NCBI GenBank assembly: GCA_016647705.1
Contig: CM028338.1
Span: 35,717,176-35,781,175, forward strand
DNA: 64,000 bases
Direction: 5' to 3'
Origin: Eucommia ulmoides
Taxonomy: Eukaryota; Streptophyta; Magnoliopsida; Garryales; Eucommiaceae
Shown in pieces: positions 3,096 through 64,000 of the stretch. A program made the translations under genes and the position numbers. Within the stretch, counting starts at the first letter, position 1; every line of letters starts with the position of its first letter. The notes under the pieces were generated by a model. It ran no database searches, had not been told where the DNA came from, and was given only the letters and a program-made list of their open reading frames with translations.

Positions 3096-3164
3096 TCACT
3101 ATGGAAAAGATAAAAGCGAAACCCAAGGGGGTATGTGGCGCGGAAAGGCAAGGAGGTCAAGTAG

Positions 3165-3874
3165 GTGCCACAATCCTATAACCCTGTCGGGGTTTCGATT
3201 GTGGACAATCGATGACGTTGGGTCAAGATTTACGTGACCTAGAGTCGTTAAGACATTGAGGGGGACTTTGGCGTTGACGCGAAGTCACGTATTCCCTCGT
3301 CTTACACTCGGAGAGGTGCTGGGGAAGTTTTAGAACTGAGATTGTCGACAGGGTAAACACAACGTGACGATCTAATAACCCTAGAGGGAGTTGGATTGTG
3401 TGCAATCAATGACGTTGGGGCGAGACTCATGTAGCCTAGAGTCGTTAAGATGTTGATGGGGATTTCAGCGTTGATTCGAAGTTGCGTATTCTCCCGTCTT
3501 ACACTCGGGAGAGGTGGCGAGGGAGTTTACGAACCGAGATTATCAGATACGATGAACGCCGTTAATGTTAACTAAAACTAAATGAAACGCATTTAAGTAA
3601 ATAGAGTTAATCCCTAGGCAATATACTCCCCTAAACAATCTCAAATTAGTATTTATAGTATAGTTAGCCTAATTAGTTTTTTTTTAGTTTAGTATTAGTA
3701 TTAAATTAAATTTCATTTTTAGCATCTAGATAAAATTAGGTTATAACAATTGCGGTACTCGATAGTAACGACACCAATCCCTATGGATATGATACCCGAC
3801 CGAAAGGTCCATTATACTAAAATTTGATCCGTACGCTTGCGGTGAAAGTGACAACGCTTATTTAGCGGGCACCA
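3165..3874 (+). repeat. Truncated 3' LTR
   Basis: This stretch matches 30-767 closely, with both 190-base blocks and the same end (GGGCACCA). Everything 5' of the R region, including U3 and the promoter, is missing and is replaced by the tandem repeat and a 70-base spacer. No primer-binding site follows, as expected for a 3' LTR. The target duplication cannot be checked because the left end lies outside the window. Confidence 0.8.
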
Positions 3875-13321: not shown

Positions 13322-13615
13322 GCAAATCCGCCTAGGCGGTGGAAATTGCGCCTAGGCGGAGTCAGGTCGGTTCAGTCTGATTGCCTAGGAGGTGAAGTAG
13401 GCGGTGGACTTGGAGAACATTCTGTTGGATTTTCGCCTAGGCAGTAGAATTTCTGCCTAGGCGAGCGGCTGTCAATAGCCCTTCTGCGTTTTCTGCTGGA
13501 TTTCTGCCTAGGCAATAGAATCTTCGCCTAGGCGGTCATTCGTCAGTAACATTTTGCTCTTCTCAGCATCTTCACCGCTTAGGCGGTGGTCTGGACGCCT
13601 AAGCGGTGGACCTTT
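13322..13615 (-). promoter_or_regulatory. CGCCTAGGCG palindrome cluster upstream of LTR TATA box
   Basis: At least six sites of the form CCGCCTAGGCGG, GCGCCTAGGCGG, CGCCTAAGCGG and close variants occur within 290 bases. The first is a perfect 12-bp palindrome at 13328-13339. The cluster begins about 50 bases upstream (minus-strand sense) of the TATA box at 13267-13274. The same position in every other full LTR of the family holds a similar cluster. Confidence 0.7.
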
Positions 13616-14222
13616 TTCATCTTTTAGCCTCCGAGCTTGTTTATCTACCGTAACTTCGAACCGCTTTGGTTCGATCTCATTGTTTTAGCTCCAGTTTCCT
13701 ATCTTTTTGCCCCACACACCTGATTTATACAAAAAGTATGAAAACTAATTAAAACATAATAAAATACTATATAAACATATTCGAAAACTAACAAATTCGG
13801 ATTGGAAATAGATAGGTTTTTCACACCTATCACTCTTATAACTTATGAGTTTCTATTTCTTCAAGCGACTGGTTAATCCTTTATCATTTGCTTTACTGTT
13901 ATAGTGTATGCACATGTCTTCTGCTATGGTCAATTGTGCCGAAGACACAAATGAGTTGGATGCCCAACTTATGCACCAGGTGACGAAATTCAGCAAGTTG
14001 GAATAAAGGAATCGTGCCTTAGAAAATGAGAAGCTTAATCTGGCGATACACCTTACACTGGCGAGATCTTCCCAAGAGAGATTTGAATTAGAGTTGCGCT
14101 CTGCTAACGAGCAATGAGAGGTTTTGTAGAAAATCAACGAACTCTATTGCTCGGAGAATAGCGGGCTCAAGACAGAGATTACTTCCATGGGAAGAGATTG
14201 CACATCCTTGAGAGATGATATC

Positions 14223-18759: not shown

Positions 18760-19375
18760 TCGCTGAGCTGAACTACTCAATTAAATATTGAGCTTAAATG
18801 ATCTGTTGGTTGCTGAGCTGAGAGGCTCAATTAAACCTTGAGCTAAGGCGCTCAGTTTTTACTGAGCTTAAAAGCTCAGTTAAATCTAGGCTGAGATGCC
18901 TAGTTAATTGCTGAGCTAAAATACTCAATATATACTGGCTAAGGTGCCTAGTTAAGTGCTGAGCTAAGGAGCTCAGTTACTGCTGGGCTGAGGTGCCTTG
19001 TTAAGTGATGAGCTAATGAGCTTAGTTAGGTGCTAAGTTAAGTAGCTAAGTTTTTGCTGGACTGAGGTGCCCAGTTAAGTACTGAGCTAAGAATCTCAGT
19101 TACTGCTAGGCTGAGGTGCCCAGTTAGGTGATGAGTTAAGGATCACAGTTACTGCTAGGCTGAGGTGCCCAATTAGGTTCTGATCTATGGAGCTTAGTTG
19201 CTACTGGGTTGAGGTGCCTAGTTAGGTGCTAAGCTAAGGAGCTCAGTTACTGTTGAGCTAAGGTACCCAGTTAAGTTCTGAGTTGAGGAGCTCAGTTGCT
19301 ACTGGGCTGAGGTGCCTAGTTAAGTTCTGAGCTGAAGAGCTTAGTTGCTGCTGAGCTGAGATGCCCAGTTAAGTT
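18760..19375. repeat. 49-bp dimeric tandem repeat in the Tat 3' region
   Basis: Units of about 49 bases, each made of two related 24-25 base halves: GCTGAGCTAAGGAGCTCAGTT and GCTGGGCTGAGGTGCCCAGTT. Around a dozen diverged copies are visible. Each half contains an inverted motif (GAGCTNAGGNGCTC). The array lies between integrase and the antisense genes. Tat/Ogre elements are known to carry variable tandem repeats in this 3' untranslated region. Confidence 0.85.
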
Positions 19376-19574
19376 GACCTTAATGTTTGTTTCAAACTTA
19401 GTCTCATTTTACTAAGTGTTCTAAACATTGCAAAAGTAGATTAGTACAATAACAACCGTCACAAAATCTATGGAGATAAAATCATTTCACTTTATTGAAT
19501 AAGAATATCTCAAATTAATAGAGAATTACTTTAAAACATCCAAAGATAAACAATAATCAGAAAATGATTAGAAC

Positions 19575-20580
19575 TCATACAAAATACTTGCGCAGGTGAG
19601 AGATGTTCCAAGGTCTGAGAATTTTCATGCCGTCCAGATCTTCTAGCCAATAGGTCTTTGGTCTGTTGACTTTGGTAACTTGGTAAAGGCTTTCCCAGTT
19701 TTATGCTAGCTTTCCTAAGCGAGCTTCTAGGCGATGAGGCATGACCCGTCGAAGTACCAGGTCTCCTACAATGAAGTGTCATGGACGGACTAAATGATTG
19801 AACATTCGAGCCATTCTTGATTTATAAGTTTCCATTCTTATCACCACCCTGTCACGTCTTTTTTCTAGCTAGTCCATTTCTTCTCGCAAGAGTTCATCGT
19901 TCTCTACCAGGTTGATTTAGTCATCCCGTCCAGACAACATCCCTATCTCTACTGGAACAATAACTTCGGTGCCTTAAGTCAAGGAGAAAGGTGTTTTCCC
20001 ATTGTCGGAAATTGGAGTGGTCCGGTAAGCCCACAACACTCCTGGGAGATCTTCTACCCATTTTCCTTTTGCATTATCCAGTCCTTTCTTGAGTTCATCC
20101 TTGATAGAACGGTTTGTCACCTTTGCTTGTTAATTGGCTTGTGGACACGCCGGGTTGGATGTTCGATATTGAATCTTTAATTCGTTGTACACCCATGCAA
20201 CCTTGCCACTAGTGAAATGTGTCCCGTTATCATAAATGAGCATTATTGGGATACCAAAACGACATATGATATTTTCCAATGAAAATTCTTTACTTTATTC
20301 TCTCCCACAGTTGTGAAGGCTTCAACTTCTACCCACTTGGTGAAATAATCAATTACCACCAGCAGGTACTTCTTGTTTCCTGGCACTGGAGTGAAGGGGC
20401 CTAACACATCCATCCCCCAATGAGAGAATGGCCATGGGCTGATTATTGGAGTCTGTTGTTGAGTAGGGACCTTGATATTGTTGGAGAAGCGTTGACACTT
20501 ATCACATTTCTTTACATATTCCTGCGCATCAATGCATATAGTTGGCCAGTAATATCTCGCTCGTAGTGCCTTGTGAACCA
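19575..20580 (-). pseudogene. pol: Tat-lineage integrase (3' part of pol)
   Basis: Reading leftwards from 20580: the zinc-binding part (KALRARYYWPTICIDAQEYV, CDKCQRFSN), the core start WGMDVLGPFTPVPGNKKYLL, VIDYFTKWVEVEAF, then YDNGTHFTS, and the C-terminal SLYQVTKVNRPKTYWLEDLDG to HLRKYFV and a stop at 19575-19577. This order and text are those of Tat/Ogre integrase. It is dead: the third catalytic position reads AN-stop-QAKVTNR where NGQAEVTNR is expected, so the glutamate is lysine. Other stops and a frameshift near 20280 are present. These changes fit G-to-A decay. The gene once continued into the RNase H part at 22424. Confidence 0.88.
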
Positions 20581-20809
20581 ATCCTTGGTGATTTTTTCAA
20601 ATCAGTTCATGTATTTCATGTAGGACATAGGTAGTTTCCTTTGGTCCATCCTCCATTGAGCGAATGGCCATGGGCTGATTGTTTGAGTTTACTGTTGAGC
20701 AGAGACCTTGATATCATTGGAGAAGCGTTGTCACTTGTAATATTTCCTCATGTATTCCTGCGTTTCAATGTGCATAGTTGGCCAGTAATATCCCACTCTT
20801 AGCGCCTTG
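20581..20809 (-). repeat. pol: Tandem duplication within the integrase N-terminal region
   Basis: About 20650-20809 repeats 20417-20580 (GAATGGCCATGGGCTGATT, GAGAAGCGTTG, GTTGGCCAGTAATATC, CGCCTTGTGAAC). The following linker (CTTGGTGATTTT...GGTAGTTTCCTTTGGTCC) is found both at 20583-20645 and at 22439-22501. A unit of about 235 bp was therefore duplicated in tandem before the solo LTR at 20815 entered the second copy. Confidence 0.8.
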
Positions 20810-20814
20810 TGAAC

Positions 20815-22418
20815 TGATAGGTGTAAATTATCTATGTATTTTCAATCCGAATTTGTTAGTTTTCAAGTACGTTTATAGTTATTTTTATATGTTTTAATAT
20901 CTTTTTATTCTTCTTGTATTAAAATAGGTGCGTGGGATGAAACGGTATGAAATCGGAGCGAAAACAATATGATCGAACCAAAGCGGACGAAGTTACGGTG
21001 GATAAATGAGCAATGAGGCAACATTGTGAAACAAGCCCATCGCCTAGGCTTCTAGACCTCCGCCTAGGTTGTGAAGATTGCTGATAACATTTCCAAGTCC
21101 ACCGCCTACTTCTTCGCTTAGGTGGTCACCAAACCTGCAAAGCCGATATAGGTACTGTAATTTAAAGGCTATTTTGGACTATGATGCGATCCAATTTTGG
21201 AAACACTCAAAACACGGAAGTTGTATATATTTTTCTTATCTTTCCATAGGTTTTTGAATCACCTCAATCGGAGTTCGAATGAAGAAGTTACAGTCAAAAC
21301 AAAATTAAAAACCTACAGTAACTTCGCCTAGGCAAAAATTCGGCAGAAAGTTAACCGACCTAACTTAGCCTAGGCAAAGTTTTCTTCACCTAGGAGAAAT
21401 CCTCTACGTAGAATAAATATTTTGGAGATAATTTTTGGCCTATTTAAGCTCTTCTCTCCTCATCTTTTCTCTCTTCTTGAGCTCCTAAGGCCTTAGGCCA
21501 TATTTTAGGGTTAGGATAAGGGATGTTTGAGGGAGAGCTCTCAACCCGAGGTGGAGGATGAAGAGGGAAGCGATCGGTAGACGGTTCTAGCGGCTATTCT
21601 TCGGATATCGCTAAGTCGCTCGTTTCTTCTCTTTGTTTTCTTCATTTTGGTAGTTGTTGAGCATGTTTAGCTCATTTTACATTGTATAAACAATTAGGGC
21701 CATGAGTTAAACATGGATTGTAATAGGGATTAACGTATTATTTATGGAAATGTAGTGTTGGTTGAATTTGTGATTCGTTCTTGGTTGTTCTTCGTATGTT
21801 GATTGTGTTGCCATGTTTTCTATGATTATATGCTAGTTTAGATATATTGAGAATACAGGGTTTGACACTCGAGAAAGGTAACCCCGGATTCGGACTAGGG
21901 TTAACACAACACGACAATCTAACGACCCAAGAGGGCGTTAGAAAGTGTGCAATCGATGACGTTGTGCTGAGACTCACGTGACTTAGAGTCGTTAAGACGC
22001 TGAGGAGGACTTCAGCGTTGACACAAAGTCACGTATTCCCCCGTCTTACACTCGGAAGAGGTGGCAAGGGAGTTTACGAACCGAGATTGTCGGATACGCC
22101 GAACTCCGTTAATGTTAACTAAAATGAAATCAAACGCATTTAAGTAAATAAAATTAATCCCTAAGAAATCTACTTCCCTAAACAATCTCAAATTAGTATT
22201 TATAGTATATTTAACTTAATTAGTATTTTAGTTTAGTATTAGTGTTAAATTAAATTCTATTTTTGTCGCCTAGATAAAGTCAGGTTATGACAATCGAGAC
22301 ACTCAATAGTAACAACACCAATCCCTGTGAATAAGATACCTGACCAAAAGGTCCATTATACTAAAACTTGATTCGTACGCTTGCGGTGAAAGTGGCAGCA
22401 CTTACTTAGCAGCCACCA
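20815..22418 (+). mobile_element. Solo LTR with TGAAC target duplication
   Basis: TGATAGGTGTAAATTATC to TTAGCAGCCACCA, with the exact duplication TGAAC on both sides (20810-20814 and 22419-22423). It has only one copy of the 190-base block, CGCCTAGG-type palindromes at 21028-21400 and then CCTATTTAAG (TATA, near 21440). Its 3' end matches the subfamily at 767 and 3874. It lies inside the duplicated integrase segment of the Tat pol gene, in the opposite orientation. Confidence 0.92.
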
Positions 22419-22423
22419 TGAAC

Positions 22424-23989
22424 CAAGGTTCTTCATCCTTGGTGATTTTCGCAAATCCCTTCATGTATTTCTTGTAAGACATAGGTAGTTTCCTTTGGTC
22501 CTAAACAAAGAAACAATGGTTGGAAAAAACATCGTCTATATAGTCTTCCGTTGACATACCTCGAAATTTTGTATAGAATTTTCTTGGCGGAATCCTTGCC
22601 ATCTAGTGAGATTATATCCTTTAAGTAACGAATTAAGAAAGTTCTTCAGTCTTCTTCCTGATCCAGTTATGCATGCACATAGGTTAACTAGATCTGCTGA
22701 TCTAGCCCAAAAGCAGAAGCTAGAACTGATAAAGCATATGCCTTTATGTTTTCAGTCTTGGGGATGGCTTCAAACTTGCAATCTTGGAATGAGGAGATCA
22801 GCGCTTTTACTTTCTCAACGTAAAGACACAATCATTCCTCATTAATGATGAACATTCTATTAATCTGATTGACCACCAATTGAGAGTATGACTTCACTTC
22901 TAGAAGTTGGGCGCCTAACTCCTTAGCTAGAATCAACCCCAAAATTATTACTTTATTGTTAGAGGTTCGAAAATCGAGTTGTACTATTTTTTCAAGTTGA
23001 TCTTCTTAATGTATTTGCAAGACTATGCCCACTTCACACCGCCTTCATGTTCAATGCACCGTTAACCCTGAGCTTCCATGGTGTAGCTGACTAATCCCTG
23101 CACTCTCCATTTTGCATAGCAGCTTCAGCTGGAGGAGTCAGTTCTGCAATAAAGTCTGCCAAGGCCAGTCCTTTGATAGTTGTCCTATGCTTGTGCTTGA
23201 TGAAAAACTCATCAAGTTCCACAGTCCACTTCATGAGACGTCTTGATGCCTTTGACCTGTGCATTACCGCTAGGAGCAGGTATGAGGTCAGCACGTTAAT
23301 CACGTGTGCCTGAAAATATGGTATGAGCTTTCGTGCTGTGGTCACCAGGGCCAGGACAAGCTTTTGCAACTTAGTATAGCGATTCTCTGCTGGGACTAAT
23401 GACTTGCTGATGTAGTAGACCAGCATCTGCCCTCCTATGTAATCTTTTACCAATGCAGCACTGACCGCTACAGGTGTTACCGCCAGATAAAGATAGAGTT
23501 CTTCCCCTGTATTTACTTTGGCTAACGTCTCAACTGAGGCCAAGTAATCTTTGATGGATTGGAGCGCTCTTTCACAGTTATCATCCCACTGAAAGGTTTT
23601 ATTCTCTCTCAAAATCTTGAAGAAAGAAGCATACCTGTCAGTAAATTTAGAGATGAATCTGTTCAGCGCAGCCAAACTTCCTGTTAGTACTTGACCTTCT
23701 CTTATAGTCGTAGGGGATTTCATGTTCTTGACAACTTCTATTTTACCAGAATCCACCATGATGCCAATCTAGTTTACCACAAAGCCCATAAATTTTCCAG
23801 ATGCAACTCCAAAAGCGTATTTTTCTGGATTTAGCTTCATGTTGTATTTCCACATAATGGCAAAGGCTTTTGCCAAGTGGCTAAGGTGGTCATATTTTCT
23901 AGAGCTTTTAACCAGCTTATCGTTTATGTAAACCTCCATAGTTTCTCTGATCTAATCCTGAAAAAATGCAGTTCATTAACCACTGATAT
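22424..23989 (-). pseudogene. pol: Tat pol: end of RT, RNase H and second RNase H
   Basis: From right to left: the RT catalytic stretch EVYINDKLVKSS (complement of 23919-23930 for YIND, where YVDD is usual, so one catalytic aspartate is asparagine), NMKLNPEKYAFGVASGKFMG, the connection and RNase H (FQWDDNCERALQSIKDYL, YYISKSLVPAENRYTKLQKL), then MKWTVELDEFFIKHKHRT. Beyond a degraded stretch a second RNase H-like domain can be read (AKELGAQLLEVKSYSQLVVN, then EAIPKTENIKAYALSVLAS). The dual RNase H marks the Tat lineage. The open part 23091-23759 is the longest intact piece. The RT N-terminal half lies at 30692 and beyond, split off by an inserted element. Confidence 0.88.
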
Positions 23990-23994
23990 ATAGC

Positions 23995-25592
23995 TATACG
24001 GCGAGCGTTTGTTACGCACTCACTTATTGACTACTCGCAAGTGTACGAGGTCAAAATTTTAGTATAATGTGATCTTTAATATCGGGTGTATCCACCGAGA
24101 TTGGTTGTCATTATTATCGAATACCGTAATTATCATGACCTAACTTTATCTAGGCTAAAAATGAATGTAATTTAATTAATTAACACTAATACTAATATAA
24201 CCTAAATTAACTATACTAATTATACTAATACGAGATAGTTAGGGGATGGATTATCTAGGGATTAACTTTATTTACTTAAACGCATTTAATTTCGTTTAGT
24301 TTACAATAAAGGTGTTCGACCTATTCGATAATCTCAGTTCGTAAACTCTCCCGCCACCTCTCTCGAGTATAAGATGAGGGCTATAACGTGACTTCGTGTC
24401 AACGAAGAAATCCCCCTCCACATCTTAATGACTCTAGGTCACATGAGTCTCGCCTCAACGTCATTGATTGCACACAATCCAACTCCCGACCGGATTATTG
24501 GATCGTCGCGTTGTGTTTACCCTATCGACAATCTCAGTTCTAAAACTCTACTACCACATCTCCCTAGTGTAAGACGGGAGAATACATGACTTCGAGTCAA
24601 CGGAAAAGTCCCCCTCAACTTCTTAATGACCCTAGGTCACGTGAGTCTTGCCCCAACGTCATCGATTACCCACAATCCAACTCTCTCTTGGGTTATTGAA
24701 TCATGGCGTTTGTTTACCTTAGTCCAAATCTGGGGTTTGTCAAACCCCGTATTCTCCGAATATCATTCTAAGCATAATAAACAAACAATACGACAAACAC
24801 AATCAAACTACGGAGAACATTCATTAAAAAACACAACTCAAACAAAACTACGTTTTCATACATAATATTAATCCCATACACAATCCACATTTAGCCTATG
24901 GACATAGCCATTTATACAATTGAAACAAGATAACCATGCTCAAACAAATATCAAAGTTAAGAAATAAAAGGAAAAACGGATGAACTGAGTCGATATCCGA
25001 AGATTAGCCCCTAAAACAATCCACCGATCAATTCTCCTTCTTTGCGTGGTAATCTTTTCCTTTGGATTTGTTTGAGCACTCCCCATACTGTCTTTATATA
25101 CTAAACTAAGCCCTAAGGGCTCTAATAGCCAGAGGTTACAAAGGAGAGGGGATGAGAGGGGTTTAAATAGGCAAAATATCTAAATAAATATCTAATCTGC
25201 TGCAGAGGCCACCACTGTGGCGGTGAGTAGGTCGGTTGGTTAATCGCCTAAGCGGTAAAGACAGTGGTGGAATGGTGACCATCCTGCATTTTCACCGCCA
25301 TGGCGGTGGATCTCACAGCTGCGACGGTGGACGTTCAACAAGAAATTGGCCACTCTGGATTTTCACCGCCGCGGCGGTGGACTTGTTTTCAGAATTTTGC
25401 CGTCTTGCTCATTTTTCCACCGTTTTTGGTTCGATCTCATCGTTTTCGCTCTAGTTTCCTATCGTTTAGCCCCACACGCCTAATTTATACAACAAGAATA
25501 AAAACTAAGTAAAATATAATAAAATAAACTATAAAAATACTCTAAAACTAACAAAACTGGTTTGGAAATATGTAGGTAGATTACACCTATCA
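23995..25592 (-). repeat. Left (3') LTR of the non-coding element
   Basis: Runs from TATACGGCGAGCG (the normal TG start mutated to TA) to TTACACCTATCA, 1,598 bp. It has two copies of the 190-base block, a TATA-like element on the minus strand (complement of 25161-25170) and the palindrome cluster 25206-25380. It is followed at 25593 by a degraded polypurine tract (complement of AATACCTCCGAACTTGG). Confidence 0.9.
25206..25380 (-). promoter_or_regulatory. Palindrome cluster with CATG and CGCG cores
   Basis: Two perfect 16-bp palindromes lie 55 bases apart: CACCGCCATGGCGGTG (25293-25308) and CACCGCCGCGGCGGTG (25364-25379). Imperfect relatives are at 25206, 25245 and 25315. The cluster is about 40-210 bases upstream (minus-strand sense) of the LTR TATA-like box. 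Confidence 0.75.
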
Positions 25593-26513: not shown

Positions 26514-28121
26514 TGATAGGTGTGATCTACCTACATATTTCTAAACTGGTTTTGTTAGTTTTAGAGTATTTTTTTTATATTTATTTTATTATGTTTTAAT
26601 TAGTGTTTATACTTTTTGTATAAATCTGGTGTGGGGGGCAAAAAGATATGAAACTGGAGCGAAAACGATGAAATCGAACCAAAAATAGTCGAAGAACGGT
26701 GGAAAAACAAGCTCAGAGGCAATATTGTGAAAGAAGCCTACCACCGTGGCGTCCAAACCTCTGCCGCGGCGGTAACGATGAAGAGACTGACTTATTCTTA
26801 CTGACCATCCACCGTTGCGGCGCTGAAGATGCAGGATGTCAACCAAGTCCACCGCTGTCTTCACCGCCTAGGCGATCAACTAACCGACCTACTCACCGCC
26901 GCAGCAGTGACCTCTGCACAGACTGAAGATACTTATTAGACATTTTGAGATATTTTGATTATATATATCCCATCTCCTCCCTCATTTTTGGAGTCTCTTG
27001 GCATTTTGAGCCCCTTAGACTATATCTAAGGGTAGGTTTAGTAGTTTTAGAGGGAGAGCTCACATCCCGAAGTGGAGGAAGACGGCGAAGCGATCGTTGA
27101 GTGTTCTTAGCGGCTAATCTTCGGACGTGGCTAAGTTCTTCGATTTCTTCTCTTATTTCTTTAAATTAGGATTTTGTAAGCATGTTTAGATCGTTCTTTC
27201 TTGTTTATACAATTATGACCATGAGTTAAATGTGGATTGTATAAGGATCAATAATAAATTTATAAATATGTGTTTGGATGATTTCGGTGTTGCGTTTATG
27301 TTTGTTCTTCGTAGTTTGATTGTGTTTATCGTATTGTTTATTTATCATGCTTAGATAGATAAATGGAGAATACGGGGTTTGACAAACCCTAGATTCGTAA
27401 TAGGGTAAACAAATGCCACGATCCAATAACCCGGTCGGGGTTAGGATTGTAGACAATCGATGACGTTGAGGCAAGACTCACGTGACCTAGGGTCATTAAG
27501 ACGCTAAGGGAGACTTCTTTGTTAACTCGAAGTCATGTATTCTCCCGTCTTACACTCAGGAGATGGCGGTGGAGTTTTAGAATCGAGATTTTCAATAGGG
27601 TAAACACGACACGACAATCCAATGACCCGGTCGGGAGTTGGATTGTGTACAATCAATGACGTTGGGGCGAGACTCACGCGACTTAGGGTCGTTAAGACGT
27701 TGAGGGGGATTTCTTCGTTGACACGAAGTTGCGTTCTATCCCTCGTCTTACACTCGAGAGAGGTGGCAGATGAGTTTTAGATACCGAGATTGTCAAATAG
27801 GTAGAACACCGTAAACGTGAGTAAATCGAGATCGAACACGTATTTGTAAACAATTAATCCCTAGTCAATTCTTTTCCCTAAAACATGTTAGTATATTAGT
27901 ATAGTTAATTTAGGTTATATTAGTATTAGTTTAATTAATTATTTACATTTTTGGTCACCTAGATAAAGTTAGGTCATGACAATTACGGTACTCGATAATA
28001 ACGACACCAATCCCTGTGGATTCGATACCCGATCTTTCAAGATCATATTATACTAAAACTTTGACCTCATACACTTGCAATTAGTCAATACGCGAGCGCG
28101 TAACAAACGTTCCGCCGTAAA
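26514..28121 (+). mobile_element. Solo LTR nested in the non-coding element, GTAAG duplication
   Basis: TGATAGGTGTGATCTACC to AACGTTCCGCCGTAAA, 1,608 bp, with the exact duplication GTAAG (26509-26513 and 28122-28126). Removing it restores CAGGGTAAGCTTA, as at the related site near 1710. The last bases read AA where CA is expected. It is in the opposite orientation to the element it entered. Two 190-base blocks and CACCG/CGCCTAGGCG palindromes (26740-26925) precede TATATATATCCC (near 26957). Confidence 0.9.
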
Positions 28122-29122: not shown

Positions 29123-30686
29123 TGAACGGCGAAGCGTTTGTTCCACGCTTGCGTATTGACTACTCGCAAGTGTATGAGGTCAAAGTTTTAGTATAATGTG
29201 ATCTTTCAGATCGGGTATCGTATCTACAGGGATTGGTTGTCTTTATTTAGGCTAAAAACGAATGTAATTTAATTAATTTGCCACTAGTACTAATATAACC
29301 TAAATTAACTATATTAATACGAGATAGTTAGGAGATGTATTATCTAGGGATTAATTTTATTTACTTAAACACATTTGATTTCATTCAGTTTACAATAATG
29401 GTGTTCGACCTATTCAACAATCTCAAATGGTAAACTCCTCCGCCACCTCTCCCGAGTGTAAGACGAGGGATATAATGCAACTTCGTGTCAACGAGGAAGT
29501 CTCCCTCAATGTCTTAACTACCCTAGGTCATGTGAGTCTCGCCCCAACGTCATTGATTGCACACAATCTAACTCCCAACCAGGTCGTTGGATCGTCGCGT
29601 TATGTTTACCCTATCGACAATCTCAGTTCTAAAACTCTACCGCCACATCTCTCAAGTGTAAGACGGGGGAATACATGATTTCGAGTCAATGAATAAGTCC
29701 CCCTCAACGTATTAACGACCCTAGGTCACGTGAGTCTTGCCCCAATGTCATTGATTACCCACAATCCAACTCTCTCTCGGGTTATTGAATCGTGGTGTTT
29801 GTTTACCCTAGTCCGAATTTGGGGTTTATCAAACCCCATATTCTCCGAATATCATTCTAAGCATAATAAACAAACAATAATGCAAACACAATCAAACTAC
29901 GAAGAACATTCATTAAAGAAACACAACTCAAACAAAACTACGTTTTTATAAATAATATTAATCCCATACATAATCCACATTTAGCCTTAGTCGTTTATAC
30001 AATTGAAACAAGCTAAACATGCTCAAATAGATATCCAAGTTAAGAAATAAAAGGAAAAATGGATGAATTTAGCTGATATCCGAATATTAGCTGCTAAAAT
30101 AGTCCACTGATCGATTCTCCTTCTCCGCTTGGTAATCTTCTCCTTCGGATTTATTTGAGCACTCCCCATACTCTCTCTATATACTAAACTAAGCCCTAAG
30201 GGCTCTAATGGTTGTAGGTTACAAAGGAGAGGGGAGAAGGGAGGTTTAAATAGGCAAAATATCTAAAATAGATATTTAATCTGTTGCAAAGGCCACCGTT
30301 GCGGTGTTGAGTAGGTCGGTTGGTTGATCGCCTAGGCGATGAAGACAGCGGTGGAAATGTGTTCATCCTGTATTTTCACCGCTGCAGCGGTGGACTTTCA
30401 GCAAGAAATTGGTCACTCTGCATTTTCACCTCCGCGATGGAAGTCTGGACGCCACGGTGGTAGGCTTGTTTTCAGAATCTTGCCGCCTTGCTCGTTTTTC
30501 CATCGTTCTTTGATCGTTCTTGGTTCGATCTCATCGTTTTTGCTCCAATTTCCTATCTTTTTGCCCCAAACACCTGATTTATACAAAAAGAATAAAAAAT
30601 AATTAAAACATAATAAAATAAACTAGAAAAATACTCTAAAACTAACAAAATCGGTTTGGAAATATGTAGGTAGATCACACCTATCA
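29123..30686 (-). repeat. Right (5') LTR of the non-coding element
   Basis: TGAACGGCGAAGCG to CACACCTATCA, 1,564 bp, partner of 23995-25592 with two copies of the 190-base block. The palindrome cluster at 30290-30480 includes perfect CACCGCTGCAGCGGTG (30377-30392) and ATCGCCTAGGCGAT (30327-30340). A TTTAAATAGG TATA-like element lies near 30244. Confidence 0.9.
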
Positions 30687-35475: not shown

Positions 35476-36903
35476 TATACGTCGTAGCGTTTGTTACGCG
35501 CTAGCGTATTGACTACTCGCAAGTGCACGAGGTCTAGTTTTAATATAGTGGATCTTTAAGATCGAATATAGTTCCCACAGGGACGGGTTGAATAATTGAA
35601 TACCACAATTTACATAGTCTCCTATTATCCAGACGGTTCAAGAAATGTTTTAAAATTAAACTAATTAAAACTAAGCAAAATTACAATTAGTGGGTTAATC
35701 CTAACTAAGTTGATTACCTAGGGATTGATTTCGTTCACTTAATACATGTTTGATTTCGTTTTAGTTAACAATAACGGAGTTTATGGTATCCGACAATCTC
35801 GGTTCTAAAACTCCTCCACCATCTCTTCCGAGTGTAAGATGGGGGAATACGCGACTTCGTGTCAACGAAGAGGCCCCCCTCAATGTGTTAACGACCCTAG
35901 GCTGCATGAGTCTTGCCCCAACGTCATCGATTGCACACTAACTAACGCCCTCCCGGGTCGTTAGATCGTAACGATGTGTTTACTCTAGTCCGAATCCGGG
36001 GTTACCTCTCCCAAGTGTCAAACCCCGTATTCTCAAATCCAACCCTATTACCTTAACATGCATATTAATATCTTCATAAAATGATTAACACAATCGGATT
36101 TAAACACAAACAACCATTAAGAAAACTTATATTCCACTAAACTAGTATTTACACAACTACATCGATCCCTAACTAATATTTAACTAATCTAACATGATCT
36201 TTTCCATTGAAAATACAAACCAAGAGGTATTTATCATCATTTACAATAAAACATTAAAGTACAAAGAAAGAAACAAAGAGAGAAAGATCAAATCTTAAAG
36301 TGGAGTGATCCACTGTCGCCAAAGATCGATCCAGCAATGTTTTCTCTTCTCCGGATGATGAATATCTTCTTCAAGAATGTCCAAGGATCAAGGCCTATGG
36401 GTTAGGGATGTTCCATGCTCCAAAAGGCTTCAATGGATGTGGGAGAATGGGTATTTATAGGTGCAAGTCTTCAAAATATCTGAAAATATCTTCTTTGCTA
36501 TGTAGAGGTTACCACCGCGGTGGTAGGTAAGTTAGTTAGTTTTCCAAACTCTCAGATCGTTCACCGTCGCGGTGCTGGGGATCAGCGCCATGGTGGTGAA
36601 AACAACACAAACTCTCTGTCGTTTCACCACCTAGGCTGTGAGACTTGTGAATTTTTCAGCACTCTCCGCATTCCCACCGCCGTGGCGATGGTTTCTTTGC
36701 CGCGACAGTGGCTCTTGTGATCTTGAAACCTTGTTTCTTCATCATTTTTTCACCATTTTCCTACCGTTTTCACTCGTTTATCGGTTGTTTGCATCCCTAC
36801 ACCTGAATTGCATAAAACTAATAAAAACACAATTAAATATAACTAATTCACTTAAAAACTACCAAATCCGGCTTAGAAGTAGATAGGTATTTTGCACCTA
36901 TCA
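35476..36903 (-). repeat. Left (3') LTR
   Basis: TATACGTCGTAGCG (TG start mutated to TA) to TTGCACCTATCA. It has a single 190-base block. TATTTATAGG TATA box near 36450; palindromes at 36508-36720, including perfect ACCACCGCGGTGGT (36511-36524). Confidence 0.9.
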
Positions 36904-40315: not shown

Positions 40316-40525
40316 GCCTCACTGCTGCGGTGGTGTGAGCGCCTTTTTAAAAGCAAATGTTTCTACTATTTCACTACCTAGGTAGTGGGAATCACCGCTT
40401 CAACGGTGAAGCACTTTTATTTAAAACAAAACATTATGTTGGTTCACCACTGCGACGGTAAGGCATTTGTGCTAAAACTTAACTTACTGCATTTTCACCG
40501 CCTCGGCGATGAGCCTGCTGCTGGA
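40316..40525 (-). promoter_or_regulatory. Palindrome cluster in the leader of the Transposase_32 element
   Basis: Upstream of the gene and outside the LTR are CACTACCTAGGTAGTG (40372-40387, a perfect 16-bp palindrome), CACCGCTTCAACGGTG (about 40394), a CACTGCGACGGTAAG relative (about 40447) and CACCGCCTCGGCGATG (about 40497). These are the same kind of site as in the LTR U3 regions. Confidence 0.65.
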
Positions 40526-41090: not shown

Positions 41091-42519
41091 TGTACGTCGT
41101 AGCGTTTGTTACGCGCTCCCGTATTGGCTACTCGTAAGTGCAGGAGGTCTAGTTTTAATATAGTGGATCTTTAAGATCGGATATCATTCCCACAGGGACG
41201 GATTGAATAATTGAATACCGCAATTTACATAGTCTCCTATTATCCAGACGGTTCAAGAAATATTTTAAAATTAAACTAATTAAAACTAAGCTAAATTACA
41301 ATTAGTGGGTTAATCCTAACTAAATTGATTACCTAAGGATTGATTTCGTTCACTTAATACATGTTTGATTTCGTTTTAGTTAACAATAACGGAGTTTATG
41401 GTATCCGACAATCTCGGTTCTAAAACTCCTCCACCACCTCTTCCGAGTGTAAGATGGGGGAATACGCGATTTCGTGTTAACGAAGAGGTCCCCCTCAATG
41501 TCTTAACGACCCTAGGCCACGTGAGTCTTGCCCCAACGTCATCGATTGCACACTAACTAACGCCCTCCCAGGTCGTTAGATCGTAATGATATGTTTACCC
41601 TAGTCCGAATCCGGGGTTACCTCTCCCGAATGTCAAATCCCGTATTCTCAAATCCAACCCTAATACCTTAATAATCATATTAAGATCTTCATAAAATGAT
41701 TAACACAATCGGATTTAAACACAAACAACTATTAAGAAAACGTATATTCCATCAAACTAGTATTTACACGACTACATCAATCCCTAGCTAATATTTAACT
41801 AATCTATCATGATCTTGGCCATTGAAACTACAAACCAAGAGGTATTCATCATCATTTACAATAAAACATTAAAGTACAAAGAGAGAAACAAATAGAGAAA
41901 GATCAAATCTTAAAATGGAGTGATCTACTGTCGCCAAAGATCGATCCAAAAATATTTCTTCTTCTCCGAATGATGAATATCTTCTTCAAAAATGGGCAAG
42001 GATCAAGGCCTACGGGTTAGGGACGTTCCATGCTTCAAGAGGCTTCAAGGGATGTGGGAGAATGGGTATTTATAGGTGAAAGGCTTCAAAATATCTGAAA
42101 ATATCTTATTTACTGTCCAGAAGTCACCGCCGTGGTGGTGGGTAAGTCGGTTAGTTTTCTAAACTCTCTGATCGTTCACCACCGTGGCGGTGGGGATCAG
42201 CGCCGCGACGGTGAAAACAACACAAACTCTCTGTCGTTTCACCGCCTAGGCAGTGAGACTTGTGAATTTTTTAGCACTTTCTACATCCTCACCGCCGCGG
42301 CGATGGTTTCTTCGCCGCGGTGGTGGCTCTTGTGATCTTGAAACCTTGTGTCGTCATTATTTCTTCACCATTTTCCCACCATTTTCGCTCGTTTATCGCT
42401 TGTTTGCGTCCCTACACCTGAATTACATAAAAACTAACAAAAACACAATTAAATATAACTATTTCACTCGAAAACTACCAAATTCGGGTAAGAAGTAGAT
42501 AGGTATTTGACACCTATCA
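41091..42519 (-). repeat. Right (5') LTR
   Basis: TGTACGTCGTAGCG to TTGACACCTATCA, partner of 35476-36903. TATTTATAGG near 42067; palindromes at 42125-42330 with CACCGCCGCGGCGATG-like and CCACCGTGGCGGTGG sites. Confidence 0.92.
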
Positions 42520-42608: not shown

Positions 42609-44313
42609 TGGTAGGGCGTAAAATACGCCGCTACTTACACTCGCAAGTATACGAAGTCTAAGTTTTAGTATAGTGTGATCGTTAAGATCGAGTTATCATA
42701 TCCACAGGGATTAGTGTCGTTACTATCGAATACCACGTTTGTCGTGACCTAACTTTATCTAGGCGAAAACAAATGTATTTAAATAATTAAATGAATACTA
42801 ATATAGCCTAAATTAACTACACTAATATGCTAATATGTTTTGGGGTCAAGAATTGCCTAGGGATTAACGTGTTTACAAATACGTGTTTGATCTCGATTTA
42901 CTCACGTTTACGGTGTTCGACCTATTTAACAACCTTGGTATGTAAACGCCACCACCACCTCTTCCGAGTGTAAGATGGGGGAATACATGACTTCGAGTCA
43001 ACGAAGAAGTTCCCCTCAACGTCTTAACAACCTTAGGTCACATGAGTCTCGCCCAGCATCATTGATTGCACACAATCCAACTCCCTCCCGGGTTATTGGA
43101 TCGTCGCGTTGTATTTACCCTATCGACAATCTCTATTCTAAAACTCTCTCGCCAACTCTCCCGAGTGTAAGACAAGGGATATAACGCAACTTTGAGTCAA
43201 CGAATAAGTCCTCCTCAACGTCTTAACGACCCTAAGTAGCATGTGTCTTGCCCCACGTCATCGATTGTCCACGATTCAAACCCCGATCAGGTTATAGAAT
43301 CATGGTGTTTGTTTACCCTAATCTGAATCCGGGGTTTGTCAAAATCCCGTTTCTCCATTTAACATTCTAAGCATAATAAACAAACAATACGATAAACACA
43401 ATCAAACTACGAAGAACAAACATAAACGCAACACTGAAATCATCCAAACAAACATATTTATAAATATACCGTTAATCCCTACTACAATCCATATTTAACT
43501 TGTGGCCATAACCGCATAAACATATAAATCGAGCTAAACATGCTCACATGATCCTAAGATAAAGAAATAAGAAAAAACAATCGAAGAAATTAGCCTTGTC
43601 TGAAGATAAACCGTTAAGAACGCTCAACGATCGAGTCGTCGTCTTCTCCATTTCGGGATATGAGCTCCACCTGTAAAAATCCTAAACCTAGGCCTAAATA
43701 TAGCCTAAGGTGCTCAAAAATGCAAGAGAGACCGGAGAAGGGGGAGGAGAGGGGGTATTTATAGCCAAAATATCCTAAAAATATCTCAAGACTGTGCAGG
43801 GGATTTTCGCCTAGGCGGTGGATTCTTCGCCTAGGTGGAGTTAGGTCAATTCGGCTGATCGCCTAGGCGATGAAGTAGGCGGTGGACGTGGAAGAACATT
43901 CTGTTGGATTTTTTTGCCTAGGCGGTGGATTTCTCCGCCTAGGCGATCAACTGTTAGTAGCCCATCTTCGTTTTCGGCTGGATTTCCTCCTAGGCGAAGG
44001 ATTCGCCTAGGCGGTGGTCCGTCAGTAACATTTTTCTCTTTTCGCTGCTTCTTCACCGCCTAGGTGGTGGTATGGACGCCTAGGCGGTGGGCCTGTTTCA
44101 TATTTTAGCCTCCAAGCTTATTTATCCACCATAACTTCGACTCGCTTTGATTCGATCTCATCGTTTTCGCTCCAGTTTCCTATCTTTATTCCCCACACAC
44201 CTAATTTATACAAAAAAAGAGAAAAACTAATTAAAACATAATAAAATACTATATAAACACACGAAAACTAACTTAATTCAGTTTGAAAATACGTAGGTAG
44301 ATCACACCTATCA
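42609..44313 (-). mobile_element. Solo LTR, GATAC/AATAC flanks
   Basis: TGGTAGGGCGTAAAATACGC to TCACACCTATCA, 1,705 bp, with flanks GATAC (42604-42608) and AATAC (44314-44318), a target duplication with one change. It is the same subfamily as the solo LTR at 11285, with two 190-base blocks. CGCCTAGGCG palindromes fill 43805-44090 (ATCGCCTAGGCGAT at 43858-43871), upstream of the minus-strand TATA near 43757. Confidence 0.9.
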
Positions 44314-61560: not shown

Positions 61561-64000
61561 GGAAATCGAAGCAACAAAGCCAAAGGAGGACGAGTCCAAA
61601 AAGAAAATAGGTTACGAAAAAAAATCCATTTTGGATAAGAAGAAGAAGGAAGTTCTGAAGGCAAATCTTGGTTTCATCTCGTTTTCGGGCAATCCACCAA
61701 TGATCACTCCACCATTGTCATATCTGCAGTGGTTTCAGAAGAAGAAATTAGATAGCCAATTTGCAAAGTTTCTTAAAATTTTCAAGAAGATCCATATCAA
61801 TATCCCATCCATCGATGCATTAGAGAAAATGCCCAATTATGGGAAATTTTTTAAAGATATAATGACTAAGAAGAAGAAGTTGGAAGAGTACGAGACCGTC
61901 AAGATCCTAGAAGTTTCACCATCCCATACACTATTGGGAAGTCTTATTTTGAGAAGGCACTTTGCGATCTTGGTACGAGTATCAATCTTATGCCGTCGCC
62001 CATTTTTCTGAAGTTGGGACTTGGAGAAGCAAAGCCCACTACTATTTCTCTATAAATGGTGGACCGGTCCTTAACCTATCCAAAGGGCGTTATTGAAAAT
62101 GTGCATGTAAAAGTGGATAAATTCATCTTCCCGATCGATTTTGTTGTGTTGGAGATGGAAGAAGACCGGGAAATTTCCATTATTCTTGGGAGGCCTTTTC
62201 TCGCAACCGGGAAGGCATTGATCAATGTGCATAATGGAAACTTGACCTTAAGGGTCAATGACGAGGAAGTGAAATTCAACATCTTCAACACCATGAAGTT
62301 TTCGGAAGAGAGGTCGACTTGCAATCGGGTAGAAGTGGTGGATTTGTGTGTTAAGGAATTCTTTCATAAAATCGTGCACCAAGATCCTTTGGAGCACAGT
62401 CTCACAAATTCCCTATCTATGGTGGATTTTGGTGAGAAATGATCTACCAAAGATGAAAGTGTTGTGGACTGCGTTTATATCTCTCGAAGCTTTGCCTAGT
62501 GACGCGGTGAAATCGGTACAAATGGAGACTCTTGATGGAGATGAGAGTTCGCCCAACCCCTCAAATCCACCTCATGATGTATTGGTTCTCAAGAAATTAC
62601 CGGAGCACCTTCAGTATGCATTTTTGGGGGAGAACTCTACCGATCCGGTGATTATTTCATCATCGTTGAGTCAAGAAGAAGAAGAAAAACTGTCCATTAT
62701 CCTAAAAAGGCACAAGTCCATATTCACATGGTTTATTTTCGAAATCAAGGGAATAAGCCCGACCATTTGCATTCACAAAATTCTAATGGAAGACTCATTT
62801 AAGCCCTCAATTGAGCATCAACGAAGGCTAAACTCTGCAACGAAGAAAGTGGTTCGTGCTAAAGTTCTAAAGCTATTGAATGCCGGAATCATTTATGCGA
62901 TATCGGACAATGAGTGGGTACACCCCGTGCAAGTAGTACCAAAGAAAGATGGCATGACCGTGGTGAAAAATGAGAAGAATGATCTAATTCCCACATGAAT
63001 CGTCACGGGATGGAAAGTGTGCATTGATTATCGGAAGTTGAATAAGGCCACAAGGAAGGATCATTTTCCCCTCCCGTTCATTGACCAAATGTTGGACAGG
63101 CTAGCCAGTTATAACCACTACTGCTTTCTTGATGGGTATTCAAACTATAATCAAATAGCCATTGCATCGGAGGATCAAGAAAACACTACGTTCACTTGCC
63201 CGTACGGCACTTTTGCGTACCTCTATATGTCTTTTGGACTACGCAGCGCTCCAAGGACTTTTCAACGGTGTATGATGGCGATCTTTTTAGATATGGTCGA
63301 AGAGATTATGGAGGTGTTCATGGACGATTTCTCGGTCTTTGGTTCATCTTTTGACCATTGCCTCTACAATCTATCACTTGTGCTAAAGTGACGTAAAGAG
63401 AAAAATATTGTTCTCAATTGGGAGAAATGTCATTTTATGGTTAAGGAGGGTATCTTCTTAGGCCATCGGGTCTCTTCCAAGGGACTTGAGGTGGATTAGG
63501 CGAAGATTGAGACAATTGAGAAACTTCCCCCACCGATCAATGTAAAGGGGGTACGGAGTTTTCTAGGCTACGATGGCTTCTACCAGAGATTTATCAAGGA
63601 TTTTTCAAAAATTGTAAAGTCGTTGTGCAATCTGCTTGAAAAAGATTCCCTATTCATTTTTTATTATTCTTGTTTGGATGCGTTTAATGCAATGAAGGAA
63701 AAATTGATCTCGGCTCTGATTATAGTCACACCCGATTGGAATGAGCTGTTTGAGATTATGTGTGACACTGGTGACTATGCGGTTGGGGCTGTTTTGGGCC
63801 AACAGAAAGAGAAGATTTTCCGATCGATTTACTATACAAGCAAAACTCCTAATGATGCACAGGAGAATTACACCACCACGGAAAATGAAATGTTGGTGGT
63901 AGTCTTTGCTTGTGATAAATTTCAATCATACATTATTGGGTCTAGGGTGATCATCTATATGAACCACGCAGCCCTCTGATACTTGTTTGCAAAGAAAGAC
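61561..64000 (+). pseudogene. pol: Athila pol: protease, reverse transcriptase, start of RNase H (runs off window)
   Basis: The linker is FQKKKLDSQFAKFLKIFKKI, NIPSIDALEKMPNYGKFFKD. After a frameshift near 61935 the protease reads CDLGTSINLMPSPIFLKLGL (active D at 61966), MVDRSLTYPKGVIENVHVKV, IILGRPFLATGKALINVHNG. From 62348 the RT frame continues: LNAGIIYAISDNEWVHPVQV, TGA at 62996 within the T-stop-IVTGWK segment, VCIDYRKLNKATRKDHFPLP, FLDGYSNYNQIAIA, MSFGLRSAPRTFQRCMMAIF, FMDDFSVFG (63317 on; both catalytic aspartates kept). Stops are at 63389 and 63497, then FLGYDGFYQRFIKDFSKIVK, GDYAVGAVLGQQKEKIFRSI (RNase H). Integrase and the 3' LTR lie beyond the window. With few lesions this is the least decayed pol here. 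Confidence 0.92.

Follow-up and report, generated by a model that had tools for sequence, protein, structure and literature searches.

Palindromic 16-bp sites with shared arms and changing centres, lying upstream of a TATA box in a family of long terminal repeats (LTRs), raise the question of whether dyad symmetry is actively maintained in these repeats or is what remains of it after ordinary mutation. The stretch analysed here, referred to as the window, is 64,000 nt of Eucommia ulmoides DNA and forms part of contig C14. The initial annotation had located perfect 16-mers at 25293–25308 (core CATG), 25364–25379 (CGCG) and 30377–30392 (TGCA); all three were found in place, as were shorter perfect forms at 13328–13339, 30327–30340 and 43858–43871 and near-perfect CTAG forms at 44054 and 26862–26877. 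With up to two mismatches allowed, the window contains 22 matches to the pattern CACCGCNNNNGCGGTG, whereas shuffled sequences average 0.25. It had further been proposed that the core is always palindromic, and here the sites themselves disagree. Perfect arms occur at four window sites, three with palindromic cores (CATG, CGCG and TGCA) and one, at 13573 and omitted from that annotation, with the asymmetric core TTAG. Over the 51 array sites of the window (57 detected, minus 8 outside arrays, plus 2 added by homologous position), only 33 have a palindromic core.

Within the window are eight LTR copies whose heads can be recognised, plus a diverged remnant that also carries an array (Table 1). 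Partial LTR copies are present near 32–749 and 3167–3849, neither of which reaches the head. At 24328–24704, 29417–29793, 59–440, 3164–3544 and 27412–27791, the downstream part of the LTR contains a duplication arranged head to tail, its period being about 198 bp, and a tandem array with a 49-bp period and seven registered copies occupies 18960–19424. Broken coding pieces were also seen, namely a reverse transcriptase plus RNase H piece at the right end (62999–63976, plus strand) and, on the minus strand, pieces of integrase and RNase H (20246–20596 and 23094–23768); these pol pieces are of Ty3 type, and any link to the dyad family would be conjectural.

Table 1. Dyad arrays and associated features in the window; core sequences of copy B and array K are given in LTR sense.
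Feature	Position	Strand	Remarks
LTR copy A dyad array	13326..13608	-	head at 13832; cores CTAG/TTAG/CTAA
LTR copy B dyad array	25206..25380	-	LTR about 24033-25592, minus
Copy B cores	25364 CGCG, 25314 CGCA, 25293 CATG, 25242 TTAG, 25210 CACA	-	
Copy B TATA-like box TATTTAAA (LTR sense)	25162..25169	-	40 bp past last copy B dyad
LTR copy C dyad array	30294..30462	-	head at 30686; 30377 TGCA, 30326 CTAG
LTR copy D dyad array	43805..44089	-	head at 44313; core CTAG in 9/9 detected sites
LTR copy E dyad array	26739..26909	+	head at 26514
LTR copy F dyad array	21038..21127	+	head at 20815; CTAG/TTAG
LTR copy G dyad array	36510..36710	-	head at 36903; 36510 TACCACCGCGGTGGTA perfect, arms changed
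LTR copy H dyad array	42125..42325	-	head at 42519; CGCG and decayed forms, one CTAG site
Array K, diverged remnant	40320..40511	-	40372 CACTACCTAGGTAGTG perfect; other cores CGAG, CGCA, TGAA

The type of element that carries the arrays was assessed from two elements, L009 and L016. L009 has LTRs of about 1.6 kb that align with each other at about 91%, a polypurine stretch TTTGGGGGTATT directly 5' of the 3' LTR head and, just after the 5' LTR, the primer-site-like stretch TTTTTGGCGCTGTTG, with the PBS-side stretch TTTTTGGCGCTG. Its interior is 1.9 kb long and has no stop-free frame above 78 aa. The same polypurine stretch is present in L016, where the LTRs agree at about 94%; the stretch analysed for L016 stops inside the 3' LTR, and the interior is not delimited there. 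Since a PPT-like stretch precedes the 3' LTR in both elements and a primer-site-like stretch is present in L009, the sense of the LTR is fixed. The one delimited element, L009, thus combines paired LTRs and PPT/PBS-like stretches with a lack of coding capacity, the features of a non-autonomous LTR retrotransposon, and its flanks have no exact target-site duplication. From L009, L016 and nine presumed sister LTR pairs (identity 0.886–0.943), we infer that the whole family is old and non-autonomous.

The arrays are very abundant in the genome. Searching the 947-Mb genome with the exact pattern CACCGCNNNNGCGGTG gave 11,873 perfect-arm sites, whereas the reversed pattern used as a control gave 8, and the LTR head TGATAGGTGNNANNNACCTA gave 6,943 + 6,925 matches, i.e. 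about 13,900 heads. Viral contigs scanned with two patterns gave no matches. Our sample comprises 108 distinct LTR heads from three sources: 87 are consecutive matches to the head pattern through the first 6.6 Mb of contig C1, 13 lie in 10-kb stretches chosen because they contain a perfect-arm site, and the window supplies 8. Counting dyads against shuffled controls, as the initial annotation had suggested, confirmed an excess, with 23 perfect dyads versus 2.4 and 136 16-bp dyads of at least 7 of 8 pairs versus 32 in the 108 heads. The main site set contains 622 sites within distance 5 of a CTAG or CGCG reference, in groups of 1–12 per LTR, and 568 of them start at offset 200–520 in the LTR. 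A TATA-like motif follows within 130 bp of the last site in 71 of the 106 site-bearing LTRs (shuffles: mean 11.5, maximum 19), and in 68 LTRs it starts 36–60 bp past that site (shuffles: mean 2.5, maximum 8). The proposed place upstream of a TATA box is therefore borne out for these 71 LTRs and not for each full LTR, as 35 of the 106 have no TATA-like box by the motif used. A reading that put the arrays on the downstream side of a TATA box (TATAAATTAGG, close to the start of the LTR) was given up after the TATA-like box further along and the stretches on the PPT and PBS sides had come to light.

Neighbouring sites look regularly spaced. Their spacings concentrate around 20–21, 32, 42 and 51 bp, each close to a multiple of 10.25 bp, and phasing at this period reaches R 0.74 for spacings up to 110 bp and R 0.81 over 13 spacer groups, values drawn from few spacer groups, with some spacings being sums of others and the period being the best of several tried. 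Phasing is weaker in 36 smaller spacer groups (R 0.39 at 10.4 bp). Expanded arrays were observed in L040 and L041 at offset 190–600, in which a unit of about 70 bp with two CTAG boxes 20 bp apart is repeated several times.

We then asked how symmetric the sites are across the sample. In the main set, the core is palindromic in 382 of 622 sites, and the claim of an always palindromic core fails here as in the window. A second set was defined by the arms only (up to 3 mismatches, core free, arrays of at least three sites, one site with up to 2 mismatches), which gave 464 sites in 103 arrays, 39 of these arrays coming from stretches picked for a perfect-arm site; 213 of the 464 cores are palindromic. 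Permutation over all arrays predicts 104.8 palindromic cores and permutation within arrays 196.6 (P 0.0125), suggesting that the composition of each array explains most, but not all, of the symmetry. In a further permutation of the main set, right halves were swapped among flank-matched sites (448 of 622 sites, in 40 groups of at least four). Left–right association was absent at seven of the eight mirrored pairs, and only the innermost pair is symmetric beyond independence, with 404 symmetric cases against 349 expected and none of 3,000 permutations reaching 404. Covariation between positions 2 and 15, apparent over all sites (349 vs 284), vanishes in flank-matched groups (229 vs 228.4) and therefore reflects site types.

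The decay of the sites was followed by counting single and double hits in the main set. CGCG sites comprise 70 intact ones, 48 with one outer hit and 24 with one inner hit, and the doubles, with the expectations for independent decay of the two CpGs in brackets, number 5 for TGCA (8.2), 4 for CATG (2.1) and 8 for TGTG plus CACA (8.2). Among CTAG sites, 296 are intact and 88 carry a single hit, while TTAA occurs 7 times against 6.5 expected. The CpGs of the arms behave in the same way, with 9 and 10 symmetric doubles (9.5 and 8.7 expected) and 7 and 12 asymmetric doubles (7.0 and 11.8 expected). Symmetry thus decays about as independent mutation predicts, and the proposal that the core changes while symmetry is kept finds no support in present copies. 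Many of the perfect palindromes are the remainder of ordinary decay, and CATG and some TGCA cores fit decayed CGCG. The changing centres mostly look like the product of ordinary mutation and inherited lineage types, rather than of a symmetry-keeping process. Counts of C-to-T and G-to-A over whole arms (352 vs 609) were set aside because lineage arm types bias them. The observed/expected CpG ratio in the arrays is 0.97, i.e. without depletion, and methylation as the cause of the transitions therefore gains no support.

To place the core types on lineages, a tree of the 108 heads was built without the sites, and the inner state, TA or GC, was mapped on it. Counted as switches between the two states, observed versus shuffled, the state is strongly clustered at site a (5 vs 20.5) and site b (5 vs 28.1), less so at sites c (7 vs 15.3), d (8 vs 20.6) and g2 (10 vs 26.9) and slightly at g1 (5 vs 9.3), while site e shows no clustering (8 vs 7.7). 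The 106 site-bearing LTRs divide into 58 with TA only, 22 with GC only, 25 with both and 1 with neither. When the commonest core of each of the 103 arrays is scored, provided that it is common to at least two sites, CTAG leads with 24 arrays, followed by CGCG (16), TGCA (9), CGAG (7), TTAG (5), CGCA (4) and TGCG (3), with four other types accounting for 5 together; in the other 30 arrays no core is common to two sites. In arrays that can be oriented, CGAG was counted 25 times and the reverse form, CTCG, once, so this asymmetric core has one sense. These results indicate that the CTAG, CGCG, TGCA and asymmetric CGAG types follow LTR lineages in large part.

TGCA needs separate treatment. Genome-wide, perfect-arm sites have the core CGCG 1,024 times, TGCG or CGCA 1,067 times, TGCA 1,030 times and CGAG 424 times, with 4,473 for all C..G outer pairs. 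Decay would predict about 278 TGCA sites; the count is 3.7 times as high, and TGCA is therefore an inherited type of its own in many copies. It makes up 3 of 3 sites in L113 and in one L018 array, 3 of 5 in L016 (with 2 TATA) and 3 of 6 in L118. As such TGCA-rich arrays exist, the idea that all these cores are decayed CGCG was dropped after the genome count. L118 has a different head, TGATAAGTGGAATTATCTA, and together with L113, L018 and L016 represents related LTR types with TGCA-rich arrays. The initial annotation had named the sorting of cores into a few old subfamilies as the outcome that would speak against it; cores do follow lineages at sites a and b, yet the excess at the inner pair, the excess of TGCA and the 8, 8 and 10 switches at d, e and g2 go beyond such a sorting. 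Our preferred account is that recombination between lineages would explain both why TA/GC intermediates are scarce and why mixed arrays contain single-site islands.

Sister LTRs offer a view of change within single elements. Ten candidate pairs on the same strand and about 3.5–6 kb apart were collected, of which one was dropped (79% identity) and nine were kept; their sister status is presumed from strand and distance. Across the nine pairs, 40 sites were compared; they show 79 differences, of which 68 are transitions, and the cores differ at 11 sites. No switch between TA and GC was found at any of the 40 sites. Mirrored positions differ on both sides in 11 cases against 6.8 expected from position rates. 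In these 11, both LTRs are paired in 3, both are broken in 6 and one is broken in 2, so compensatory change is not in excess, and the suggested repair of one arm from the other is not seen in these presumed sisters. At one site of the L027/L028 pair, the core is CGTG in one LTR but TGCA in its partner, consistent with a CGCG parent that decayed once the element had inserted.

What, then, are the sites? Judging from sequence and position, they are probably cis-regulatory boxes, repeated within the U3 promoter region of a large LTR family, of which the copies examined are old and non-coding. Each box would consist of inverted half-sites of about 7 bp, CACCGCC and GGCGGTG, around a 2-bp centre, and a host DNA-binding protein contacting both half-sites may have driven LTR transcription while the elements were active. 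As a binder of CACCGCC we presume an AP2/ERF-type factor to be a candidate. A centre shared within an LTR could arise if arrays grow and homogenise through duplication and template switching, or if one factor selects the sites together, and mixed arrays could result from recombination between lineages. Transcript hairpins may in addition draw host small-RNA silencing, as reported for maize Sireviruses. A stronger form of this promoter reading, in which each lineage has its own centre (TA, GC, TGCA or CGAG) at many sites of the array, with unchanged arms and flanks, and replaces that centre in concert as a recognition code that tracks a changing trans-acting factor, with the phasing of about 10.25 bp setting the boxes on one helix face, seems to us a distinctly long shot.

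Selection might instead keep dyad symmetry at each site, as in a dimeric binding site, with cores switching only between palindromes. The excess at the inner pair and the existence of TGCA-rich arrays agree with this, as does the finding that in 90 of 103 arrays the two halves have the same majority inner letter. However, asymmetric cores are shared among copies: CGAG forms the majority in 7 of 103 arrays and turns up repeatedly at sites d and e, chiefly in the part of the tree with the TAATTT tag. Single flank-matched groups hold TTAG at 9 of 10 sites, CTAA at 6 of 8 and CCAG at 5 of 7, and asymmetric arm types persist as well (positions 2/15 in one group of 52: A/T 30, T/T 21). We consider per-site selection unlikely on this balance. 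Far less probable still is that hairpin template switching, whether in replication or in reverse transcription, restores one arm from its partner: two perfect window sites, 36510 and 40372, are altered in both arms, and mirrored double differences exceed expectation in presumed sisters, but the arms lack left–right covariation in flank-matched groups, and most of the mirrored doubles (6 of 11) leave both LTRs broken, with only 3 both paired.

The arrays could also matter mainly as RNA hairpins, either for packaging or as a source of host small RNAs. Their predicted folding is strong: over 40 LTRs sampled from those carrying four or more sites, with 25 shuffles per LTR, the mean z is -5.1, compared with -1.1 at the LTR start. 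Two reports describe maize Sirevirus palindromes as small-RNA hotspots (PMC5311732, PMC10760457). In a hairpin, however, the central four bases would form the loop, which leaves the symmetry at lineage level unexplained, and the arm CpG changes lack the C-to-T bias that wobble pairing would tolerate: with the other arm intact, the left arm has 40 C-to-T and 50 G-to-A changes and the right arm 51 and 69. A mainly RNA-based role is possible at modest odds, somewhat ahead of per-site selection, and we favour promoter-proximal binding sites on one face of the DNA, with a small-RNA source as a possible secondary role.

The initial annotation knew of no description of such a pattern, which is wrong in kind. 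According to PMC2829016, Sirevirus LTRs carry multicopy palindromic repeated-motif (RM) boxes in the upstream half of the LTR, shortly before the TATA box; these begin 200–400 bp past the PPT/LTR junction, and both the motifs and the intervening bases vary between elements. The present boxes resemble them as multicopy palindromes at a similar depth in the LTR (568 of 622 sites start at offset 200–520) and upstream of a TATA-like box (71 of 106 LTRs). The suggested dyad binding site or hairpin upstream of a TATA box is plausible and has a close published parallel. Unlike the RM boxes, with their CGG...CCG signature in that text, the boxes here read CCG...CGG. Sireviruses are Ty1/copia elements, for which the same source gives the PPT AGGGGGAG and the PBS TATCAGAGC, whereas L009 has the PPT-like and PBS-side stretches given above and a non-coding interior; the Sirevirus PPT signal is absent in L009 and L016, and the PBS signal in L009. 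By analogy, the dyad elements may work like the Sirevirus system without being members of it. Maize Sirevirus palindromes, CACCGGACNNNGTCCGGTG (Bousios et al. 2016, as relayed in PMC10760457 and PMC5311732), have fixed arms and a variable centre and cluster in the LTR cis-region, and they are described there as rapidly evolving as well as being small-RNA hotspots; fixed arms with a variable centre are shared with the boxes here, and the arms differ. The BII boxes of Tnt1, known from tobacco experiments, are said in PMC3316501 to bind defence-induced factors, and they resemble the present boxes by position in an LTR promoter. Among the papers listed on LTR/U3 palindromes and Athila, mainly from the open literature, and in passages of one Retand paper, no description of this family's boxes was found; searches for the CTAG-type 10-mer returned only unrelated papers, and those for a GCC box plus LTR promoter none.

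Taken as a case of sequence evolution, the family illustrates how a striking series of perfect palindromes can be merely what ordinary decay has left intact. With about 13,900 LTR heads in one genome, it is a large natural data set in which selection on regulatory dyads can be set against mutation. A promoter architecture like that of Sireviruses, present in a very abundant family whose end signals differ, would suggest that both converged on one solution.
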